A stretch of DNA of 45,107 nucleotides. It comes from Deltaproteobacteria bacterium. GTDB taxonomy: Bacteria; Desulfobacterota; WTBG01; CAIYCZ01; CAIRTM01. Numbering within the stretch: position 1 is the first letter of the stretch; every line of letters begins with the position of its first letter. The notes under the pieces are model-generated. The model was not told where the DNA came from, did no database searches, and was given only the letters and a program-made list of their open reading frames with translations. The position numbers and the translations under genes were made by a program. Positions 24,676-42,392 of the stretch are shown here, piece after piece. Location: assembly GCA_016875025.1 (NCBI GenBank), contig VGSH01000011.1, forward strand, positions 1 through 45,107. Direction: 5' to 3'.

Positions 24676-25656
24676 ATGGAACTGCCCAAAAAAATCTCTG
24701 ATGAGCAGTTACGGCCGTATCTCAAGTATGGCGAAAACGACGCGCGCGCCCGGCTGCAGGCCTTTATCCGCCAGCAGCACGCGACCTGGCCGGACCTGGC
24801 AGCGGCGCATCGCCGGCTCGACACACGGTTGACGCGCACTCTGCCCCTGACGGACAGCAGCGTCGAGCTGCAGTGCAACCCGGGGCGAACCCGCAGCACC
24901 ACGGCGAAGGTAGCAGCAAAGGATGTTGCACAGCGCCCCTGTTTTTTATGCCCGGCCAATCTGTACCCGGAGCAGCTCGGCCTGCTCTTTGCTTCTGACT
25001 GGCTGATCCTGAACAACCCCTTTCCGATATTCAACGGCCACATGGTCATCAGCACCATACGCCACACTGCCCAGCTGCTTGAGCCCGCCCTGCCGGCAAT
25101 GATCAGCTTTGTACACGAGCAGCATGGCACGTTCAGCGCCTTTTACAATGGCGCGCGCTGCGGTGCTTCAGCCCCGGATCATCTGCATTTCCAGGCCTGT
25201 CCGGCAGGCATGCTGCCGATTGAGCGCCAGCTGTCAGCGCTGCTGGATGAGCCCCTGCGCAAAGAAACTCCCTGGTACGTTACCACGCTCGACAATCGCG
25301 GCATCGGCCTGTGCCGTGCTGCCTCAGCCCCTGAGCTTCTCGGCCGCCTGCGCGTCATGTGCGCCCGACTCAACCGCACGGCAGATCCCGGCGACGAGGC
25401 TGACCTCAACCTGATCATCTTCGGCCGCAGAGGTCGGCTTGCGGGTGTATGCCTGCCGCGCAGAACCCACCGGCCGGCCTGTTTTTTCGCCACCGGAGAT
25501 GCGCAGTACGTAATCAGCCCCGGCGCGGTCGATGTAGCCGGACTTGCGATTCTGCCCCGCCAGATGGATTTCGAGCGCATGACAAAAGAAAAAATGCTTT
25601 CAATCTACGCGGAAGTCTGCCTGGGCGCCGATGTCATGGCCGATTGTACAACGTAA
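24676..25656 (+). CDS. HIT-superfamily nucleotide phosphorylase/adenylyltransferase-like protein (DUF4922 type)
   Basis: The 326-residue protein has an N-terminal helical segment and a C-terminal domain of HIT type. The catalytic-like motif is APDH169-L-H171-F-Q173. It is preceded by the FxxFNGHMVIS-like strand (NNPFPIFNGHMVIS), which HIT nucleotidyl transferases use for substrate. A CFLC pair (PCFLCPANLYPEQ) recalls the zinc/phosphate loop of GDP-glucose phosphorylase and Ap4A phosphorylase relatives. The family uses the second histidine as nucleotidyl acceptor. The exact sugar or nucleotide substrate cannot be given. It converges with the DUF6642-like gene, 23 bases apart. Confidence 0.75.
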   Translation: MELPKKISDEQLRPYLKYGENDARARLQAFIRQQHATWPDLAAAHRRLDTRLTRTLPLTDSSVELQCNPGRTRSTTAKVAAKDVAQRPCFLCPANLYPEQLGLLFASDWLILNNPFPIFNGHMVISTIRHTAQLLEPALPAMISFVHEQHGTFSAFYNGARCGASAPDHLHFQACPAGMLPIERQLSALLDEPLRKETPWYVTTLDNRGIGLCRAASAPELLGRLRVMCARLNRTADPGDEADLNLIIFGRRGRLAGVCLPRRTHRPACFFATGDAQYVISPGAVDVAGLAILPRQMDFERMTKEKMLSIYAEVCLGADVMADCTT

Positions 25657-27885: not shown

Positions 27886-30800
27886 ATGCAAATAATTGAC
27901 AACATATCAACCCTTCTGGGTGATGATCTCAAAAACACACTCCAGCCAGAAGCAAAGCTGAAAATTGCGGCTTCATGTTTTTCCATCTATGCTTATGAAG
28001 CCCTGAAAACAGAGTTAGCTCACATTGATTGCCTGCAGTTTTTATTTACCGCCCCCACGTTTATCGAAAATCAGATAACCGACAAACTTAACAAAGAAAA
28101 ACGCGAGTTTTACATCCCCAGACTCCAACGGGAAAGCAGCCTGTATGGTTCAGAATTTGAGATTCGTCTGAAAAACGAGCTTACACAGCGCGCCATAGCA
28201 AAAGAATGTGCAGCCTGGATTAAGCAGAAAGCGCACTTCAGGTCCAATCTTTCAAATGCCCCGATGCAGCAGTTTGCATGTGTTGAAGCCGGGCAGGGAA
28301 AATCAGCCTACGTCCCTTTAAGCGGTTTTACAGCGGTTGATCTTGGGTATCAGCGGGGTGATGCGGTATCAAATTTTGTCAACAAAATGGATGATGCAGC
28401 GCTCACAACCACCTATCTGCAGCTGTTTGACCAGATATGGAATGATGCTGAGAAGGTCGGCGATATCACCGACCGGGTATGTGAGCACATTGCCGCAGCG
28501 TATACTGAAAACTCTCCCGAATCAGTGTACTTCCTGATCCTTTTCAACATCTTCAAGGAGTTTCTCGAAGACATCTCTGAAGATGATATGCCCAATGATC
28601 TGACTGGCTATCAGAATAGCCTCATCTGGCACAAGCTGTTCAATTTCCAGAAGGATGCCGCTATCGGTATCATCAATAAGCTGGAAAAGTTCAACGGCTG
28701 CATTCTGGCTGACAGCGTTGGTCTGGGTAAAACCTTCACAGCTCTGGCCGTTATAAAGTATTACGAACTTCGCAATAAGTCTGTTTTGGTTCTGTGCCCG
28801 AAAAAACTCTCGGACAACTGGCAGAATTATAACCAGAACCTTGTTACAAATATTTTCGCCAGCGACCGTTTCAATTACGATGTTCTCTGCCATACCGACC
28901 TGCAGCGCACCCGTGGCTCTTCGTTGGGCATACGCCTTGACCGCATTAACTGGGGCAACTACGATCTGGTGGTCATAGATGAATCGCATAATTTCCGCAA
29001 CAACGATGCTTTTAAAGACCGGGAAACCCGCTATCAGAAGTTAATGAATAAGGTTATCAAGGCAGGGGTGAAAACTAAGGTTCTGATGCTCTCAGCCACG
29101 CCGGTTAATAACCGTTTTAACGATCTGCGCAATCAACTGGCGCTTGCCTATGAGGGCGACACCGAACAGCTGGATAAAAAGCTTCATACCGATAAAGACG
29201 TAAACGAAATATTTCGCCGCGCTCAGGCTGTTTTTAATGTCTGGAGTAAGCTGCCCCCTGCACAGAGAACATCGGCGGAAATCCTCACCCACCTTGATTT
29301 TGATTTTTTTGAAATGCTCGACAGTGTCACGATTGCCCGGTCCCGCAAGCATATTCAGAAATTTTACGACACCAAGGATATTGGCCCTTTCCCTGAGCGC
29401 CTCAAACCGCTATCGTTCAACTGCCCGCTTACGCACCGGTGCGAAATCATCGGTTTCAATGAAATTTTCAACCGGCTTGTTGCGTTAAGTATGGCGATCT
29501 ACGCGCCGTTTCAATATATTCTGGCAAGCCGGGTCAGCAAATATGAAGCCCAGTATGATACGCAGGTAAAGGGCGGTCTTTCGCGCTTGAAACAGCGCGA
29601 CCGTGAAGAAAGCCTCAAGGCCCTGATGACGGTCAATCTGCTCAAGCGTCTGGAAAGCTCCGTCGAGGCATTTAGAAGCACTCTGACCATGCTGCATGAG
29701 AAGCATGAGCAGATACTGGCAATGATTGATGCATTTAAGAATAGCGGTATCTCGGGTGTGTTTGAAGATTTTACACCGGCTTTTGAGAATGCCGATGAAG
29801 ATGCTCTGGATGTGCCGGAGGATGATGAGTTCAGCATAGGCGGTAAAATACAAATCAGCCTTGCGGATATGGACCTTGATTTATGGGGTGGCCAGCTCCG
29901 GAACGATTTGAAGGTCATCAGCGAACTGCATGCTGAAATGCAAAAAATCACTCCGCCCGATGATGCCAAGCTGCAACACTTAAAAAACCTGATCGCAGCC
30001 AAGCAGAAAGACCCCATCAATCCCGGCAACAAAAAAATTCTTATTTTCACAGCCTTTGCTGATACAGCCGCCTATCTCTACAATAATCTGGCCCCGTATA
30101 TTAAAGAACAGTTCGGCCTGCACAGCGCCAAGGTCACCGGCAGCGACAGCTGCAAGTCCACATTGAAGCGCCATCACAACTACCAAGAGCTTCTTACCTT
30201 GTTCTCCCCCATAGCTAAAGAAAAATCACTGATCCTGCCGGGTGAACCCTCAGAGATTGATGTGTTGATAGGTACTGACTGTATTTCAGAGGGTCAAAAC
30301 CTGCAGGATTGCGATTATCTTGTCAATTATGACATTCACTGGAACCCGGTGCGCATTATCCAGCGTTTTGGCCGCATCGACCGAATCGGCTCCAGAAACA
30401 GTCGGATTCAGCTGGTAAATTTTTGGCCTGATATTTCACTCGATGAATACATCAACCTGAAAGGCCGTGTTGAAAGCCGCATGGTCATAGCAGATGTGAC
30501 CGCAACCGGCGACGATAACGTGCTCAGTTCCGAGGCTAACGATCTGGCTTTCCGCAAGGAACAACTGCGCCGTCTCAAAGAAGAGGTTATTGATCTGGAA
30601 GATGTAAAAACCGGCGTTTCCATCACTGATCTGGGCCTGAATGATTTTCGCATGGATTTAGTTGCCCATGTAAAAACCAACGGGAGCCTCGATGGCGCAC
30701 CCAGGGGCATGCATGCTGTTATTGGCGTTGATCAGGAAAGGGGCCTGCAGCCGGGCGTTATTTTTGTCCTGCGCAACACAGACCACGGCATAAATATCGA

Positions 30801-31158
30801 TCAGCAGAATCGCCTGCACCCGTATTATCTGATTTACATCGATAGCAATGGTCAGGTCGTAATTGATCACACGCAGGTTAAAAAAATTCTCGATCTGGTG
30901 CGCTCTGCCTGCAAGGACCAATCAGAGCCGATACCTTCACTGTATGTGCCGTTTAATCGCGAGACGCATGATGGCCGCAAGATGGAGCGCTATTCACGCC
31001 TGCTTGAGCAGTCCATTCACTCCATGATTAATCTGAAGGAGGAAAAGGATGTAGACAGCCTGTTTTCATCAGGCGGTACAACGGCATTGATTAATCCTAT
31101 CAGCGGCTTGGATGATTTTGAGCTTATCGCCTTTCTGGTTGTGCGGGAGGCCGTCTGA
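27886..31158 (+). CDS. SNF2-family helicase with PLD-like N-terminal region
   Basis: The product has 1090 residues. The N-terminal ~200 residues (KLKIAASCFSIYAYEAL, LQFLFTAPTF) resemble the phospholipase-D-like region often found at the front of helicase-related defence proteins, without a visible HxK motif. The SF2 core has Walker A DSVGLGKT (276-283), DESH (365-368), SATP (403-406), and motif VI QRFGRIDRIGS (826-836). IGTDCISEGQNLQ belongs to the second lobe. It would translocate on double-stranded DNA. It is the first gene of a cassette with DUF4391 (2-base gap), a DNA methyltransferase, Fic and Res. Codon use is less GC-rich than in the flanking genes, which supports transfer. Confidence 0.9.
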   Translation: MQIIDNISTLLGDDLKNTLQPEAKLKIAASCFSIYAYEALKTELAHIDCLQFLFTAPTFIENQITDKLNKEKREFYIPRLQRESSLYGSEFEIRLKNELTQRAIAKECAAWIKQKAHFRSNLSNAPMQQFACVEAGQGKSAYVPLSGFTAVDLGYQRGDAVSNFVNKMDDAALTTTYLQLFDQIWNDAEKVGDITDRVCEHIAAAYTENSPESVYFLILFNIFKEFLEDISEDDMPNDLTGYQNSLIWHKLFNFQKDAAIGIINKLEKFNGCILADSVGLGKTFTALAVIKYYELRNKSVLVLCPKKLSDNWQNYNQNLVTNIFASDRFNYDVLCHTDLQRTRGSSLGIRLDRINWGNYDLVVIDESHNFRNNDAFKDRETRYQKLMNKVIKAGVKTKVLMLSATPVNNRFNDLRNQLALAYEGDTEQLDKKLHTDKDVNEIFRRAQAVFNVWSKLPPAQRTSAEILTHLDFDFFEMLDSVTIARSRKHIQKFYDTKDIGPFPERLKPLSFNCPLTHRCEIIGFNEIFNRLVALSMAIYAPFQYILASRVSKYEAQYDTQVKGGLSRLKQRDREESLKALMTVNLLKRLESSVEAFRSTLTMLHEKHEQILAMIDAFKNSGISGVFEDFTPAFENADEDALDVPEDDEFSIGGKIQISLADMDLDLWGGQLRNDLKVISELHAEMQKITPPDDAKLQHLKNLIAAKQKDPINPGNKKILIFTAFADTAAYLYNNLAPYIKEQFGLHSAKVTGSDSCKSTLKRHHNYQELLTLFSPIAKEKSLILPGEPSEIDVLIGTDCISEGQNLQDCDYLVNYDIHWNPVRIIQRFGRIDRIGSRNSRIQLVNFWPDISLDEYINLKGRVESRMVIADVTATGDDNVLSSEANDLAFRKEQLRRLKEEVIDLEDVKTGVSITDLGLNDFRMDLVAHVKTNGSLDGAPRGMHAVIGVDQERGLQPGVIFVLRNTDHGINIDQQNRLHPYYLIYIDSNGQVVIDHTQVKKILDLVRSACKDQSEPIPSLYVPFNRETHDGRKMERYSRLLEQSIHSMINLKEEKDVDSLFSSGGTTALINPISGLDDFELIAFLVVREAV

Positions 31159-31160
31159 GC

Positions 31161-31814
31161 GTGTTTATCTATCCTGAAAAGGCGTTGTTTAACCGGGTGC
31201 TGCCCAAAACAAAGATTTATGCCAATGCCAAACCGCGCAGGGCGATCAGAGAAAAATTTGTTTCACACATCAGCGAAATTGTCTGGAAGTATAAACTGGC
31301 CCCGGATACTATCAACCTGCCAGCGCGTGACGGCTACTTTGAAATTGAAGTTTTTGATATTAACCTGAAACAACCAGAGCTGAGCACCGATGTTTTAAGT
31401 GCCATAGATAAAGCCATTCCATACCCTATATTTTTCAGATTACTGTATGGGCACCGGGTGAAAGAAGTGGCAGCATATAAGCGCCCAGCAGCAGACGGCT
31501 CCAGCTCGTGGGTTATTGAAGACTATTTTGAATCCGGCTGGAAAAAAAATAGCGAGCCGACCATGCCTCTGCCTGTGGCCGTGCATTTAAAATCGCTGTA
31601 TGAGCAGATGCTACATGCCTACATCGATCAACCACAACGGCCCGGTGAAGCATTTGAGTCTTTGGTTGAGCGGATGCGTCAGGTTCGTAAATGTCAGCGC
31701 GAACAGAGCATGCTTGAAGCACAGATAAAAAAAGAAAAGCAGTTTAACCGCAAGGTTGAAATTAATGCACAGCTGCGAAACCTTAAAGCACAGGTAGCTG
31801 AATTGACGAAATAA
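31161..31814 (+). CDS. DUF4391 domain protein
   Basis: The product has 217 residues and a GTG start two bases after the helicase stop, so it is translationally linked to it; GGGAGG lies inside the helicase end. The fold seems alpha/beta for 1-150 (LPKTKIYANAKPRRAIREKF; YPIFFRLLYGHRVKEVAAYKRP) and ends in a charged coiled coil (about 175-217). DUF4391 is known to me mainly as a companion of helicase-methyltransferase defence loci; no activity has been assigned that I can name. A bridging role between helicase and methyltransferase/nuclease is inference. Confidence 0.85.
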   Translation: MFIYPEKALFNRVLPKTKIYANAKPRRAIREKFVSHISEIVWKYKLAPDTINLPARDGYFEIEVFDINLKQPELSTDVLSAIDKAIPYPIFFRLLYGHRVKEVAAYKRPAADGSSSWVIEDYFESGWKKNSEPTMPLPVAVHLKSLYEQMLHAYIDQPQRPGEAFESLVERMRQVRKCQREQSMLEAQIKKEKQFNRKVEINAQLRNLKAQVAELTK

Positions 31815-31975: not shown

Positions 31976-33865
31976 ATGGAAAAGATGAAAATGCACTCTC
32001 CGAACCTTACCCAGGAAAACATCGCCCGCATACGCGAGTTGTTTCCCACCTGTGTTACCGAGGCTAAAGGAGAAGACGGCAGCTTGAAGCTGGCTGTTGA
32101 TTTTGACCAGTTGCGTCAGGAATTATCCGACTCCATTGTTGAAGGCCCGCAAGAGCGTTACCATCTCAACTGGCCGGGTAAACGCGAGGCCCTGCTTACT
32201 GCCAATGCACCCATCGCCAAAACGCTTCGCCCCTGTCGGGAAGAAAGCGTTGATTTCGACACCACGAAAAACCTGTTTATTGAGGGCGATAACCTCGAAG
32301 CCCTGAAATTGCTGCAGGAGACCTATCTCGGTAAGGTTAAGATGATCTACATCGACCCGCCGTATAACACGGGCAATGATTTCATCTATGAAGACGATTT
32401 TGCTGAGACCGCAGACGAATTTTTGAAACGTTCAAACCAGAAGGATGAGTTAGGCAATCGGTTGATGGCGAACACCGAAGCCAATGGCCGGTTTCACTCG
32501 GACTGGCTTTCGATGCTTTACCCGAGGCTCAAATTGGCGAGAAATCTTCTCAAGGATGATGGCGTAATATTTATCTCGATCGGCGATGAAGAAGAATCGA
32601 GTGTCAAAAATATTTGTAATGAAATATTTGGTGAGGATAATTATAGAAACTGCTTTGCTGTAAGAAGGCACGATAAAAATTTGAATCGACAATTTATGGC
32701 CTCAGGACTAAAAACGCTAAATGTAGGTTTTGAGTTTGTATTGGTTTATGCAAAATCACAATTATACAACTTTAATCCAGTATTCAAAGAAGCCTCTGAA
32801 ACTCGTGCAAGTAATGGTTATTGGAAAGGATTCTGGAATGCCCCTGACAGGCCTACAATGAGATACGATATCTTGGGATTTACTCCTAACGAAGGTCAAT
32901 GGAAGTGGAAAGAAGAAACTGCTTTAGAAGCGGTCGAAAATTACAAACTTTATGAATCAGAATATTCATCGCAAATGACTCTTGAGCAGTACTGGGAGAG
33001 CACAGGGAAAGTTAAAAAGTTTATACGTCGTAATCATAACGGCGCCGGGAGAAATATGGGGGTTGAACATTGGATCGAACCTTCGGAAGGCATTCTCAGA
33101 AATAGCAATTTATTAGATATTTTGGCTACCCAAGGCTGTGATGAAATTCGAGGTTTTTTTGATTTTCCGAAAAATATTGAGTTGCTGTCCGTACTTTGCC
33201 AGTTTGCAAGTGAAGATAATGATTTGGTCCTCGACTTTTTTGCCGGTTCCGCCACCACAGCCCATGCTGTTATGCAGCTTAATGCCGAAGACGGTGGAAA
33301 CCGAAAATTCATAATGGTTCAGCTGCCCGAGCCCTGCGATGAAAAGTCCGAGGCATTCAAGACGGGATACAAGACCATCGCCGAAATCAGTAAAGAGCGC
33401 ATCCGACGGGCAGGTAAAAAAATCAAAGAAGAAAACGCGATTACAGCAGCCGACCTTGACATCGGCTTTCGCGTGCTGAAAATCGATTCATCCAATATGG
33501 CTGACGTTTACTATCGTCCTGATCAATATTCGCAAGATATGCTGGCCACGATGGAAGGTAATATCAAGCCGGACCGCACGCCTGAAGACCTGCTGTTTCA
33601 GGTGCTTCTGGACTGGGGCGTTGATCTTACGCTGCCCATCAAAAAAGAAATCATTCAGGACAAAACCGTATTTTTTGTTGATGAAAACGCGCTGGTCGCC
33701 TGTTTCGACAATGAGGTGAATGAAGAGTTGGTAAAGGAACTGGCCCGTTTTAAGCCGATTCGGGTGGTATTTCGTGATAACGGTTTTGTCTCCGACGCCG
33801 TCAAGATCAACGTTGAGCAGATTTTCAAGCAGATGTCTCCGGGCACTGAGGTGAAGTCGATATGA
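31976..33865 (+). CDS. mod: Beta-class site-specific DNA methyltransferase (type III Mod-like)
   Basis: The 629-residue product would methylate an adenine (or N4-cytosine) to protect host DNA. The catalytic motif IV DPPYNTG (127-133) comes before the AdoMet motif I DFFAGSATTAHAV (420-432). This order and the surrounding FIEGDNLEALKLLQETYLG.KMIYIDPPYNTGNDF pattern define the beta class used in type III systems. Residues about 195-400, the target-recognition region, are encoded by visibly more AT-rich DNA than both flanks. The C-terminal ~150 residues match the Res-contact part of Mod. Its stop overlaps a 21-codon frame by ATGA. A methyltransferase and a Res subunit with intact motifs suggest a working system. 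Confidence 0.93.
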   Translation: MEKMKMHSPNLTQENIARIRELFPTCVTEAKGEDGSLKLAVDFDQLRQELSDSIVEGPQERYHLNWPGKREALLTANAPIAKTLRPCREESVDFDTTKNLFIEGDNLEALKLLQETYLGKVKMIYIDPPYNTGNDFIYEDDFAETADEFLKRSNQKDELGNRLMANTEANGRFHSDWLSMLYPRLKLARNLLKDDGVIFISIGDEEESSVKNICNEIFGEDNYRNCFAVRRHDKNLNRQFMASGLKTLNVGFEFVLVYAKSQLYNFNPVFKEASETRASNGYWKGFWNAPDRPTMRYDILGFTPNEGQWKWKEETALEAVENYKLYESEYSSQMTLEQYWESTGKVKKFIRRNHNGAGRNMGVEHWIEPSEGILRNSNLLDILATQGCDEIRGFFDFPKNIELLSVLCQFASEDNDLVLDFFAGSATTAHAVMQLNAEDGGNRKFIMVQLPEPCDEKSEAFKTGYKTIAEISKERIRRAGKKIKEENAITAADLDIGFRVLKIDSSNMADVYYRPDQYSQDMLATMEGNIKPDRTPEDLLFQVLLDWGVDLTLPIKKEIIQDKTVFFVDENALVACFDNEVNEELVKELARFKPIRVVFRDNGFVSDAVKINVEQIFKQMSPGTEVKSI

Positions 33866-33927
33866 ATCCGCAGATTACAAAAAACATGGCCGCGCAAGCT
33901 GCGGACATATCCGGAGGTGGCACATGA
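33862..33927 (+). CDS. 21-codon frame bridging mod and fic
   Basis: A short frame (MNPQITKNMAAQAADISGGGT) begins with ATGA overlapping the mod stop and ends with ATGA overlapping the fic start. It contains the fic ribosome site (CCGGAGG). It may serve as a coupling peptide or be the residue of a deleted gene. No homologue is recalled. Confidence 0.35.
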   Translation: MNPQITKNMAAQAADISGGGT

Positions 33928-35027
33928 AGCCATATCAGCCCGATAGTTTGCCATTGCAGAATTTGGATTATCAACGGTTGCTGCCCCTGGTGGGGCAGGC
34001 TAATGCCGCATTGGCTCGTTATGACGGCCTGTTGCAGGGCATTCCCAACCCGGCAGTCATGCTGTCGCCGCTGACTACACGTGAAGCGGTGCTGTCCTCT
34101 AAAATTGAGGGCACGCAGGCCACGGTTGATGAGGTGCTGGAGCAGGAGGCCGGGCTCCTGAAAGAAGGAGAAAAGTATAAGGATATTCAGGAAATTTCCA
34201 ACTATCGGAAAGCGCTGTTTGCTGCGCGGGAGTATCTGAAAGACTACCCCATACGCCTGAGCCTGCTGCGTGAACTTCACCGCATTCTCATGGACAGTGT
34301 GCGTGGTCAGGATAAAACCCCGGGACAGTTTCGCAAAGATCAGAACTGGATCGGCAAATACGGCTGCACCATCGAGCAGGCCACGTTTGTGCCACCCAAC
34401 GCCCTCCAGTTGCCTGATTTTCTGCAGGCATGGGAAAATTATCTGAACGGCACTGATATAGAATTATTGCTGCAAACCGCTGTGGTACATGCCCAATTCG
34501 AGCTGCTGCACCCCTTCAATGACGGTAACGGCCGTATCGGCCGCATTCTGATTCCTCTGTTCATCTATCAGAAAAAGCTGCTGTCGCAGCCGATGTTTTA
34601 CCTCTCTGAATATCTGGAAAGCAATCGCGAAGATTATTACCAGCGGCTGAAAGCAATTTCAGCGGAAGGCGACTGGAACGGCTGGATTGCTTTTTTCCTT
34701 GAGGCTGTTGCGGCACAGGCTGCCCAAAACAGCCTCCGGGTGTCTTCTATTAAGGCTTTGTATGAGGAGATGAAAAATAAGATTCATGCGATTACGCATT
34801 CACAGTATAGCATTCATCTGCTGGATGCCATTTTTGATCGTCCGATTTTTGCCACCACCGATTTTATTACGAGAACCGGCATCCATAAGCCGACCGCAAT
34901 GGGGCTTATCAGGCAACTGAAGGCGGAGAATATCCTGAAAGAACTGCAGCCCGGCAAAGGACGACGGGCGGCTGTGCTGTGCTTTCCCGCGCTTCTTAAT
35001 ATTGCTGAAGGCAGGGACATTCTGTGA
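33924..35027 (+). CDS. Fic-domain protein with N-terminal inhibitory helix and C-terminal winged helix
   Basis: This protein has 367 residues. The Fic motif HPFNDGNGRIGR (H196 to R207) is intact, so AMP transfer (or related) activity is possible. The N-terminal inhibitory motif [S/T]xxxE[G/N] is present as S58-SKI-E62-G63, which marks a self-inhibited class II Fic protein. The N-terminal segment FPxxxL-like pattern LPLQNLDYQRLLPLVGQANAALARYDG is typical. The C-terminal ~80 residues (FATTDFITRTGIHKPTAMGLIRQLKAENIL) form a winged helix, so DNA binding is likely. It sits inside the methyltransferase-Res operon, where it may regulate transcription or act as a toxin. A good CCGGAGG site precedes the ATG. 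Confidence 0.92.
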   Translation: MKPYQPDSLPLQNLDYQRLLPLVGQANAALARYDGLLQGIPNPAVMLSPLTTREAVLSSKIEGTQATVDEVLEQEAGLLKEGEKYKDIQEISNYRKALFAAREYLKDYPIRLSLLRELHRILMDSVRGQDKTPGQFRKDQNWIGKYGCTIEQATFVPPNALQLPDFLQAWENYLNGTDIELLLQTAVVHAQFELLHPFNDGNGRIGRILIPLFIYQKKLLSQPMFYLSEYLESNREDYYQRLKAISAEGDWNGWIAFFLEAVAAQAAQNSLRVSSIKALYEEMKNKIHAITHSQYSIHLLDAIFDRPIFATTDFITRTGIHKPTAMGLIRQLKAENILKELQPGKGRRAAVLCFPALLNIAEGRDIL

Positions 35028-35361
35028 GTTGATTTGTGTATCGCTTGGCCATGTCTATGGCTTTTGTGTATTATAAAATAATTTTTACGATACACAAAAG
35101 GCTTTGCGGATTACAGAATATCAGTAATACATTTTGTGTATTGCGTTTCTTGATAAATTGTACGCAAAATTATGTAGCGATGGTATTCGTGCTCAATCAC
35201 AATAGCCGCCTGGAGGCAGGTGATTGAAAATTTGCAGAAGAAAAAGCCCATGTTAAGAAAGATTTTTTTGATAGATTTAGTAAAATCAAGTAGTTAGCAT
35301 TCTTAAATGCAGAAAAAACGGCGTTTTTAAGAAAGCCGTACAGCAAAGGAACAAGGGATAC
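35028..35361. other. AT-rich regulatory gap between fic and res
   Basis: About 330 bases with no gene. It contains four TTTGTGTAT motifs (see separate entry) and an AT-rich stretch, which make it the likely control region of the res gene. No terminator stem was seen. Confidence 0.6.
35033..35141. promoter_or_regulatory. Cluster of four TTTGTGTAT motifs
   Basis: The nonamer TTTGTGTAT occurs at 35033-35041, 35063-35071 and 35133-35141 on the plus strand, and at 35090-35098 on the minus strand. The middle two are part of a perfect 11-bp inverted repeat, CTTTTGTGTAT (35061-35071) and ATACACAAAAG (35090-35100). This is a strong sign of a regulator-binding region between fic and res. The winged-helix end of the Fic protein is a candidate binder. 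Confidence 0.6.
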
Positions 35362-38300
35362 ATGGCCATGAAACTGAAGTTTAAAGTCCAGCCCTTTCAG
35401 ACCAGCGCGGTTGAATCCGTGGTTGACTGCTTTGCCGGGCAGGTTAATACCTCTGGTATTGTGTACCGGATCGATCCGGGAGTTGTTGCTCTTCAAGCAA
35501 AGCAACAGGCTTTAGCCTATGAGCCGGAGCACAGCACCGGGTTTAAAAATGCCGACATTCAATTAATTGATGACCAACTGTTGAACAATATACATGCTGT
35601 TCAGCGGCGGCAGAACCTGCCCCTGTCCGACAGGCTGGTATCCAGCGCCGGGTGTAAGGTCAACCTTGATGTTGAGATGGAAACCGGCACCGGTAAAACC
35701 TACTGCTATATCAAAACCATTTTTGAGATGAATAAGCGCTATGGCTGGACCAAGTTTATCGTGGTGGTGCCCAGCATCGCAATACGTGAGGGTGTGCTCA
35801 AATCGCTTGAGATCACCGCCGAGCATTTCACTGAAAGCTATGGCAAAAAGGTTCGCTTCTTCGCCTATAACTCCCGCCAGCTGCACCATCTGGAGAGCTT
35901 TTCATCTGATGCGGGCATTAATGTGATGGTCATCAATATTCAGGCATTCGCCTCCCGTGGAGCTGACAACCGGCGTATTTATGATGAGCTGGATGATTTT
36001 CAGACACGCCGTCCTATTGATGTGATCAGCAGCAACCGCCCCATTTTGATTCTTGATGAACCGCAGAAGATGGAAGGTCAGGCGACCATGGAGTCGCTTA
36101 CCAAATTCAGGCCGCTGATGATCCTGCGCTACTCTGCCACCCACCGTACAACGCATAACAGGGTCCATCGTCTCGATGCCCTTGATGCTTATAACCAGAA
36201 GCTGGTGAAAAAAATTGCTGTGCGGGGCATTGCCGTGAAGGGACTGGCAGGCACTAACGCATATCTCTATCTGGAGTCCATCGAGATTTCCAAAAAGGCA
36301 CCTGTTGCGCGGATCGAGATGGAGGTAAAACAGGGTAATGGTATTAAACGAATCGTAAAGCGGCTTGAAAAAGGCAGAGACCTGTTCGCTGAATCAAACG
36401 AGCTGGATCAATATCGCGGTTTTGTCATCTCCCAGATCGACGCCAATACAGATACGGTTGAGTTTACTAATGGGAATGTACTGAGCGCCGGGGATGTGAC
36501 TGAAGACATTACTGAAATGGCCATGCGGCGTATTCAGATCAGGGAGGCGATCAAGGCCCACTTAGACAAAGAGCAGAACCTGTTCGCTCAGGGTATCAAG
36601 GTGCTGTCGCTTTTCTTTATCGATGAGGTCGCAAAGTATCGCGATTACAGTCAAGCAGATGAAAAGGGAGAATATGCGCGCATTTTTGAGGATGAATACG
36701 AAACGCTTAAAAATGAATATCTGAGCGAGCTGCCCTTTGATAATCATGCCTACCGTAAGCATCTGGAAACCATACAGGTCGCCCGCACGCATAATGGCTA
36801 TTTCTCCATTGATAAGCGGACCAATAAGCTGACTGATCCGAGCTTTAGAACCCGTGGGGAAGATGCCGGGCTATCGGATGACGTTGATGCGTATGATTTG
36901 ATTTTGAAGGATAAAGAACGGCTGCTGTCCTTTGAAGAGCCGGTTCGGTTTATTTTTTCGCATTCAGCCCTGCGTGAAGGTTGGGACAACCCCAATGTTT
37001 TTGTCATGTGCATGCTCAAGCACAGCGATAATACCATTTCACGCCGTCAGGAGGTGGGCCGGGGCCTAAGGCTGTCCGTTAATCAGCACGGTGACCGCAT
37101 GGATAATCCGGCAACGGTCCATGATGTGAATATCCTGACCGTTGTTGCCAGTGAGAGCTACAGGGAATTTGTCGGTAATCTGCAGCGGGAAATCAGCGAT
37201 TCTCTTTCTGCTCGGCCCCGCAAGGCTGATGAGGCATATTTTTCCGGGAAGGTTATCACTACGGAAACCGGGACGGTGGAAATTACCCCAGCCATGGCTA
37301 AGCAGATTTACAAGTATTTGCTTAAAAACGATTATACCGATGATGCCGATCAGGTTGCCGAGGCTTATCACGAAGCAAAAGCCAGCGGAACTCTGGCAGC
37401 CCTTCCCGCAGAACTGGCCCCGCATGCTGATCAGATATTTAAACTGATCGACAGCGTATTCAGTGAATCCCAGCTGCCGGGCGTGGATGATGACCGCAAG
37501 CCGAAAATTAATCCGCTGAACGACAATTTTCAAAAGAAAGAATTTCAGGAGCTCTGGAACCGTATCAACCAGAAGGCGGTTTACCGTGTTGATTTCGATT
37601 CTGAGGAGCTTATCCGCTACAGCATTCGTGCTTTGGACACATTGAATGTGACTCCGCTGCAATACATCATCCAGGGCGGTGAGCAGGTTGATCAGGCGAC
37701 CTATGAGCAGTTGAAAGGCGGTGAGGGGTTTAAAATTGAGGAAACAGCTACGGAAGAATACAAGGCCTCAATACATTCAATGGTGAAATATGACCTGCTG
37801 GGTAAGCTGTCGGAAAACACACAGTTGACCCGGAAAACAATTGCTGAAATTCTTGGCGGCATCCACCCAGATACATTTAAGCAGTTTAAACAGAACCCCG
37901 AAAGTTTTCTGACTGAGGCATCCCGCCTGATTAACGAGCAGAAGGCCACAATCATTATAGAGCGACTGAGCTACGACAGTATCGCTGAAACCCACGATAT
38001 TGACATTTTTACTGCTGGCCAGAACAGGCAGGACTTCAGCAGGGCCGGTGCGAAAATGAAAAACCATATCTATGATTACGTTATTACCGACTCAGGGGTT
38101 GAGCGTAAGTTTGTGGAAGAGCTGGATACCAGCGCCGAGGTGGTTGTGTATGCAAAACTACCGCGTGGGTTCCTGATCCCGACGCCGGTCGGTGACTACA
38201 ACCCGGATTGGGCGATATCCTTCAAGGAAGGCTCTGTTAAACATATTTATTTTGTCGCCGAGACTAAAGGCTCTCTGGAAAGCCTTGAGCTTAGAGAGCT

Positions 38301-38436
38301 GGAAAATGCAAAAATTTCATGCGCCCGGAAATTCTTTGATGAGATTAATCGAAAGTTGAAACCTGAAAACGTGAAATATGATGTGGTTGACAGCTTTGGC
38401 AGGCTGATGGAGATTGTCGGCGCGGCAGGTGTTTAA
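35362..38436 (+). CDS. res: Type III restriction endonuclease subunit (Res)
   Basis: The protein has 1024 residues. The SF2 helicase core has Walker A TGTGKT (K112), DEPQ (232-235), RYSATH, and the second-lobe motifs [16 protein letters not shown] and [14 protein letters not shown]-terminal PD-(D/E)xK nuclease is present, with P948-D949 and E967-T-K969 (GDYNPDWAI...FVAETKGS), the arrangement of type III Res proteins. It would translocate or switch along DNA and cut near sites recognised by Mod. All catalytic residues seem intact. It is separated from mod by the fic gene and a 330-base gap with operator-like repeats, so it may be expressed under separate control. Confidence 0.95.
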
Positions 38437-41660: not shown

Positions 41661-42392
41661 GTGACTAAACACCACGATACTCATACAACAAAGGCACCAA
41701 ATCTCGAACAACTCCTCAATGAAAACCAGCGGCTTAAGTCATTGCTGGATGCACATGGCATTGAATGGCGGCAAGAGACTGTAACCTATCCAACCCCACA
41801 ACCAATATCACCTCCCGCTTTTCAAGAATGCACCCCGAACCTTGATTCCGCCCAAAAGGTTGCCCTTTTCCGAAGTCTCTTCCGGGGCCGCACCGATGTC
41901 TATCCCCTGCGCTGGGAATCGGCAAAAGGGAAATCCGGCTACTCGCCTGCCTGCGGAAATGAATGGAAGCCGGGAGTGTGCGGAAAGCCCCAAATAAAGT
42001 GCGCTGATTGCGAAAACAGGATGCTGCTGCCCGTTACCGATCAGGTCATCTATGATCATCTGAGCGGCAAACAGACCATTGGCGTCTATCCGCTGCTGAG
42101 CGATGATACCTGCTGGTTTCTGGCCGTTGATTTCGATGAGGCTGAATGGCGCGATGATGCCGGGGCTTTTATACAATCATGCCGGGAGCTTGGCGTGCCT
42201 GCGGCGCTTGAAGTATCACGGTCTGGGGAAGGCGCGCATGTCTGGATATTTTTTTCCGGGGCTGTGCCGGCGCGAGACGCCCGCCGACTGGGCGCTGAGC
42301 CTGTCGAAGCGTCCGAACGGAAAACGTATCCTGTAGACAACCCGTTCATGGTTCGACAGGCTCACCACGAACGGGGTTTCGTTTTGCCCTGA
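41661..42392 (+). pseudogene. TOTE conflict-system primase, truncated
   Basis: The 243-codon frame starts with GTG 41661. After a coiled coil (LEQLLNENQRLKSLLDAHGI), residues 64-210 match the archaeo-eukaryotic primase module of TOTE conflict systems: ALFRSLFRGRTDVYPLRWES, four zinc-type cysteines (C98, C107, C114, C117), the catalytic D157-F-D159 and SRSGEGAH193VW. From about residue 211 the frame is encoded by a double-hairpin repeat (EPVEASERKTYPVDN...), so the rest of the primase and the expected helicase and nuclease parts are missing. The DxD and H catalytic sites are still present, but the domain is cut short. I treat it as a decayed gene. Confidence 0.82.
42290..42377. repeat. Double-hairpin dispersed repeat, copy 4
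   Basis: GCGCTGAGCCTGTCGAAGCG and AACCCGTTCATGGTTCGACAGGCTCACCACGAACGGG repeat the unit at 8015, with a diverged first arm. It marks the break in the primase gene. Confidence 0.75.

Follow-up and report, generated by a model that had tools for sequence, protein, structure and literature searches.

The window, the whole 45,107-nucleotide stretch analysed here, carries genes for a SNF2-type helicase, a DUF4391 protein, Mod, Fic and Res, in that order (Table 1). The operon is a type III restriction-modification (RM) system in which a class II Fic gene separates mod from res. The SNF2-type helicase and DUF4391 genes upstream of mod also precede mod in the plasmid type III systems L188 and L247 (L numbers denote the loci compared in this work), and the pair looks like a part of this type of RM system. 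Shortly after the RM operon lie two further genes, one of the RhuM family and one with the AEP-TOTE primase domain of the TOTE conflict system, and a DUF4922/Ap4A-phosphorylase-like gene is found near the island. Searches of E. coli genomes returned matches to the res part only, and searches of viral contigs returned distant Fic relatives only.

Table 1. Genes and array elements of the window, with the evidence for each.
Feature	Position	Strand	Evidence
DUF4922/Ap4A-phosphorylase-like gene	24676-25656		
SNF2-type helicase and DUF4391 genes	27886-31814		PADLOC HKD+Snf2 profile 2e-124 (helicase)
mod, type III DNA methyltransferase subunit	31976-33865	+	Pfam N6_N4_Mtase 7e-30; PADLOC MTase_III 5e-223
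fic, class II (SoFic-like) Fic adenylyltransferase	33924-35027	+	Pfam Fic_N, Fic; PADLOC SoFic 2e-118
Winged-helix domain of Fic, residues 296-353	34809-34982	+	Secondary structure of AlphaFold2 model
Recognition helix of Fic, residues 322-334	34887-34925	+	AlphaFold2 model; co-variation peak at 316-336
Half-site F1, TTTGTGTATCG	35033-35043	+	Word count, geometry scan
R1 position, outer 26-bp dyad, degenerate	35048-35058	-	Geometry scan
Half-site F2, TTTGTGTATTA, left arm of central 36-bp dyad	35063-35073	+	Word count, geometry scan
Half-site R2, TTTGTGTATCG on the minus strand, right arm of central 36-bp dyad	35088-35098	-	
Half-site F3, TTTGCGGATTA, two mismatches	35103-35113	+	Geometry scan
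R3 position, degenerate	35117-35127	-	Geometry scan
Extra half-site, TTTGTGTATTG, 30 bp after F3, outside the canonical six	35133-35143	+	
res, type III restriction subunit, first gene past the array	35362-38436	+	Pfam ResIII, RE_endonuc; PADLOC REase_III E=0
RhuM-family gene	40438-41541		
Gene with AEP-TOTE primase domain	41661-42392		

A first-pass annotation of this DNA had reported four copies of the word TTTGTGTAT at 35033-35141, above chance and lying between a Fic gene with a winged-helix end and res. The copies are indeed there (35033-35041, 35063-35071 and 35133-35141 on the plus strand, 35090-35098 on the minus strand), in the interval between the two genes. Their number compares with 0.18 expected for the whole window under dinucleotide shuffling, the maximum among 100 shuffles being two. 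The perfect 11-bp inverted repeat that it had described, with 18 bases between the arms, was measured at the same lengths (35061-35071 and 35090-35100) and arises from the pair at 35063 and 35090. What had been overlooked is an imperfect fifth site in forward orientation, TTTGCGGATTA at 35103, together with the regularity of the forward series, whose members at 35033, 35063, 35103 and 35133 follow each other at 30, 40 and 30 bp. The repeat observation is real, and larger than it first appeared. Genome-wide (3.25 Mb), TTTGTGTAT occurs 21 times, with the remaining 17 copies unclustered, and the reversed pattern 27 times, showing that the word is not over-represented in the genome.

The four copies are the visible part of a larger, helically phased array of half-sites extending over ~100 bases. 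F2 follows F1 at 30 bp and is the left arm of a central 36-bp dyad, F3 lies at +40, and the outer 26-bp dyads are degenerate in the window, where two of the six canonical half-sites (R1 and R3) are affected; R1 is intact in L005, L189 and L002. A scanner that used geometry only scored this region at 42.3, a value reached by none of 2,564 shuffles of the region (maximum 41.3). Promoter scanning found three promoter-like sites in the region against 1.1 expected, and the only one inside the array is weak (TTGGCC-18-TATTAT, 9/12).

The Fic protein of the window has 367 residues. It carries the class II active-site motif HxFx(D/E)GNGRxxR, here HPFNDGNGRIGR, and the N-terminal inhibitory motif (S/T)xxxE(G/N), here SSKIEG, both intact; by the patterns used, both are retained in all but two of 54 relatives. 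Pfam recognises Fic_N (3e-26) and Fic (1e-19), while the SoFic-like C-terminal domain PF21248 scores 22.3 bits, below its gathering cut-off of 27. Notwithstanding this score, an AlphaFold2 model (pLDDT 93.8), for which 40 relatives were used, clearly shows the C-terminal winged helix. The best Foldseek match of the model is SoFic (3EQX/3ZEC), with a TM-score of 0.80-0.84 over the whole chain.

Genome contigs, plasmids and whole genomes, the last belonging to the window's phylum or to either of two other classes, supplied relatives of this Fic, of which 54 non-redundant ones with ~43% identity or more were kept. A word-based repeat finder used earlier was swamped in AT-rich flanks; the loci were instead scanned for geometry, the scanner being given the spacing (30/26/36/40/26) and not the TTTG. 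With this geometry, which was derived from some of the same loci later scanned, an array scoring 42 or more lay beside fic in 42 of the 54 loci, downstream in 34 and upstream in nine, L004 having both. No array of that score turned up in 113 control windows, placed at the 3' ends of the other genes of these loci, and none of 315 shuffles scored above 42.0. In the common layout, the forward half-sites follow one another at 30 and 40 bp, and a 36-bp dyad in the centre has a 26-bp dyad on either side; the position and geometry of the array are conserved across phyla. Unprompted, the scanner consensus begins with TTTG in nearly all loci; the half-sites keep this start and vary by locus thereafter (TATCG, GGAGC, TAAAG, GTCTCA and TCGATCA among others).

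The exact word of the window is absent from most relatives, including the mod-fic-res type III loci L001, L002 and L189. These three do carry the array, with another half-site matched to another recognition helix. The first-pass annotation had proposed to look for the same motif before res in related loci; the word itself mostly failed to turn up, and what recurs is the array with a locus-matched half-site. Because the half-site differs between loci, a literal test for the exact word would wrongly refute a link between Fic and the array.

The usual place of the array is the fic stop codon, and otherwise the fic promoter. Downstream arrays start within ~10 bases of the stop codon in most loci, and in one group F1 overlaps it. 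An array downstream goes with a fic gene tight behind another gene (25/34), and an array upstream with a fic gene heading its own transcript (7/8; Fisher p 0.003). That the array side tracks the operon position of fic is as expected of a transcriptional operator placed in the nearest intergenic gap. The pair of fic and array is found in type III and type I systems, in other settings, and on its own. In ~16 loci a nuclease gene is next to fic, and in all of them the array lies between the two; these neighbours are restriction or helicase genes, namely type III res, type I hsdR or a third, ResIII-type helicase. The array also follows fic where the next gene is hsdS (L083, L116) or mod (L004), and in L192 and L193, where the neighbour is either an AAA_13 gene or a second fic with hsdM behind it; the hsdR, hsdM and hsdS identities were read from translations, with Pfam confirming only some. 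In ~8-12 loci, including L206, L208, L113, L114 and L120, the array stands behind fic and no co-oriented defence gene follows; in the first four of these the neighbour is a housekeeping or a convergent gene. From their translated sequences, we take the convergent genes of L206 and L208 to be lepA and cysK, and L113, in which res lies upstream of fic, presumably has a phosphomannomutase-like gene.

In type III operons that lack fic, 9-12 bp separate mod from res, or other genes stand there, and no array is present. This shows that the array is tied to fic and not to res: it belongs to fic. The junction between mod and res is itself an insertion hot spot. Among plasmid type III loci it is empty in L247, L249 and L188 (gaps of 9-12 bp), and its occupants other than fic are an AAA ATPase with DUF4276 in L248 and an RNA-binding-domain gene in L250.

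Several loci elaborate on the common plan. L001 has a second array ~260 bp further downstream of fic, before res; L004 has arrays on both sides of fic, and then the apparent start of mod; and the upstream arrays of L013 and L014 are extended to about ten half-sites (TTTGTGTATAA/TTTGTGTAAAA), from ~210 to 25 bp before fic. A different, second Fic gene stands beside the array in two cases, co-oriented in the L193 locus (L233, 348 aa, with Fic-like_C) and convergent in the L195 locus (L234, 204 aa, with the Fic motif). In the wider winged-helix Fic family (30-42% identity), 222 dyads were counted beside fic against 16.6 expected, overlapping spans included. These dyads (e.g. in L096, L105, L128 and L037) apparently lie mostly upstream and use other half-sites such as AAAGTATAC. 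It therefore looks as if winged-helix Fic proteins in general have operators matched to themselves.

The half-site varies together with the recognition helix of the Fic protein. Helices with GIHKPTAMGL go with the half-site TTTGTGTATCG, those with a four-residue insert and GxHxKT with TTTGTGGAGYC, PT(R/K)xT with TTTGTGTAAAG, NRGTA with TACGG or near, PTARR with TCGATCA or TCGCTCA, and PTANRI or PTASRI with GTCTCA. Over 43 loci, which left out those with a consensus not starting in TTTG or with an uncertain frame (such as L205 and L210), distance between recognition helices predicted distance between half-sites after catalytic-domain distance was removed (partial Mantel r 0.31, p 0.0002), with a residual correlation between half-site and catalytic domain persisting. 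When 20-residue windows were moved along Fic, only 306-340 stood out, the peak of 0.30 lying at 316-336; no window that began ahead of residue 301 exceeded 0.10.

The relatives closest to the window illustrate this. The catalytic domain of its Fic is 79-81% identical to those of L189, L191 and L002, whereas identity drops to 32-46% for the HTH, and their half-site is GGAGC. Compared with L192, L193, L111 and L003, the values are 73-76% and 75-92%, and the half-site is GTATCG or GGATCG. The half-site of the window sides with the latter four loci, as its HTH does. The catalytic-domain tree mixes both helix/half-site classes, which by parsimony on that topology requires at least three joint switches, some of the forks that bear them being weakly supported. 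Co-variation and joint switching argue that Fic itself binds the array through its winged helix, and we consider it very probable that the Fic of the same locus does so physically. The earlier suggestion that Fic, with its winged-helix end, is the binder gains strong support from this comparison.

Computation has shown that the array exists, that it has a defined geometry, that it is linked to fic and that it co-varies with the recognition helix. How these features would work together can be outlined as follows. Fic, probably as a dimer, would read the 11-bp half-site (TTTG plus seven locus-specific bp) with its recognition helix and fill the three phased dyads (26, 36 and 26 bp), all on one face of the DNA in the interval that separates fic from the gene behind it. 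Fic bound there would most likely block or modulate transcription of the gene that follows. Where fic stands alone, its promoter contains the array, which would mediate autoregulation; within an RM operon, the array behind fic would separate the next gene, res in the window, from the methylase-fic part. We put the probability that the array is an operator for the Fic of the same locus, modulating transcription of what follows, at roughly 0.68.

For Res this has a specific consequence. The first-pass annotation had proposed that Res is under separate transcriptional control, and the ~16 loci with the array between fic and a nuclease gene are in line with it, whereas arrays before non-nuclease genes are not. 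Arrays that have no co-oriented defence gene behind them are not explained by a pure role as the promoter of the nuclease. Separate control of Res by the array is plausible, and we lean slightly towards a transcriptional effect on res in the window.

The alternatives differ in what the array would be for. It could be a DNA switch in cis for the Fic enzyme, with bound Fic inactive or de-AMPylating, loss, damage or occupation of the array freeing the AMPylating toxin, and regulation of the neighbour secondary. The arrays behind fic that have no defence gene following (L206, L208, L113, L114) fit such a role, and six or more sites exceed the need of a simple repressor. Precedents exist: DNA binding by the winged helix-turn-helix (wHTH) of CbFic2 shifts its balance between AMPylation and de-AMPylation and has been proposed to bring about dimerisation (PMC10628234), and E. 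coli Sofic is toxic despite its inhibitory helix, its C-terminal domain governing toxicity (PMC12249575). However, the CbFic2 experiments used random DNA, the regulatory and toxic activities of CccR are reported to be independent (PMC9755527), and the correlation of array side with fic operon position is that of a transcriptional operator. We regard this switch as unlikely to be the principal role, and control of the Fic enzyme itself as a serious rival that is compatible with the operator reading. Still less probable is a DNA-tethered toxin, in which Fic parked on the array would be kept from reaching its AMPylation targets while also throttling the restriction gene; nuclease and toxin alike would be released once the array is destroyed, copied or occupied. 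If that were true, the array would serve in cis as both sensor and antitoxin, with an invader, or loss of the RM island, as the trigger.

Alternatively, fic and its array may be a self-contained, mobile toxin-type module that landed in RM operons, the array serving fic only and exerting no control over RM. The range of contexts in which the pair occurs, including alone, suits a module of this kind, as do the insertion hot spots at mod-res and hsdS-hsdR junctions, where other genes are found in L248 and L250 and DarTG2 sits between hsdS and hsdR in EPEC (PMC12255303). Yet in several loci (L123, L189, L082) the array takes up nearly the whole gap to the next start codon, so that binding should affect transcription of the next gene, and we think it unlikely that the array serves fic only. 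The repeats could also work as RNA, as hairpins in the fic-res transcript (a stabiliser, an attenuator or an RNA antitoxin). The strand folds far better than its shuffles (z -5.1), which any palindrome array should do, and contains one terminator-like stem. An RNA role is highly improbable given that all half-sites within a locus have a common sequence, which tracks the recognition helix of Fic, that dyad spans differ by whole helical turns and that mispairs in the dyads have no G-U excess (75 G-U against 99 A-C, the mirror-image class). Against Rfam, no family reached its gathering score, the sub-threshold match to K10_TLS (23.6 of 43 bits) being of a chance type. The array is a double-stranded DNA site and not an RNA element, to judge from these sequence patterns. 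Chance or low-complexity clustering, which the AT-rich composition of TTTGTGTAT might suggest, was rejected as having a negligible probability in view of the counts, the shuffles and the geometry shared across phyla, and a dispersed repeat element (REP, BIME or MITE) was rejected on the single cluster among the genomic copies. The balanced reading is that Fic on the array would control transcription across it, as autoregulation where fic stands alone and by splitting res from mod-fic in the window; Fic as the binding partner is well supported, and control of Res plausible.

Winged-helix Fic proteins occur across bacteria and count as anti-phage defence proteins. Within the literature found, a specific DNA site for such a protein is described for CccR only. 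The arrays supply a predicted cognate site for ~40 winged-helix Fic proteins, together with a readable code from helix to half-site. They would connect an AMPylating toxin with restriction-gene expression in both type I and type III systems, and they turn the purpose of the C-terminal domain of Sofic-type proteins, and the restraint of their toxicity, into directly testable questions.

No description of the array turned up in the searchable open literature. The closest precedent for the pair of Fic and array is CccR of Yersinia pseudotuberculosis, a Fic protein with a C-terminal HTH that binds specifically to a palindrome with a wide spacer in its own promoter and represses that promoter (PMC9755527). 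CccR is a dimer and a T6SS effector, and its autorepression was demonstrated by reporter, gel shift and footprint (PMC9755527). Both are class II Fic proteins with a C-terminal HTH and widely spaced palindromic sites, the match between Fic and site being a prediction in the window. CccR uses a single 46-nt dyad (10-N26-10), whereas the window family has six or more 11-bp half-sites in 26- and 36-bp dyads, spans that are one or two helical turns away from that of CccR. The CccR site lies in its own promoter, whereas the array of the window is downstream of fic and that of the relatives upstream in 8 of 42; unlike the CccR site, arrays of this family lie mostly downstream of fic, before restriction genes.

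Other Fic proteins resemble that of the window in parts. SoFic (SO_4266, PDB 3EQX, 3ZCN) has the same full-length fold, including the winged-helix C-terminal domain, at only ~26% identity. For the anti-phage toxin Sofic of E. coli, the toxicity of which is influenced by its C-terminal domain, no DNA site was reported (PMC12249575). Sofic has a 47-aa antitoxin, AS1, downstream (PMC12249575), whereas no AS1-like ORF was recognised between fic and res in the window. CbFic2 of Coxiella burnetii (PDB 8CIL) is a class II Fic protein in which binding of DNA by the wHTH alters enzyme activity (PMC10628234); it differs in that the DNA was random, with no known site, in being a host-directed effector and in a TM-score of only 0.62-0.64 to the model of the window Fic.

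Among regulators of RM systems, RptR is a repressor that binds repeated sites and limits the expression of type I RM islands (PMC12255303). It is similarly tied to an RM operon and to repeated sites, but is an unrelated 79-aa protein encoded by the first gene of its operon, with a 6-bp site (TAGCTA) in the operon promoter. The C proteins of type II RM systems are likewise autoregulated DNA binders and could delay restriction relative to methylation, but they are small lambda-cI-like HTH proteins, are no enzymes and belong to type II systems (PMC12255303 and general knowledge). The candidate binder in the window is instead a full Fic enzyme, rather than a small stand-alone DNA binder of the C-protein or RptR type.
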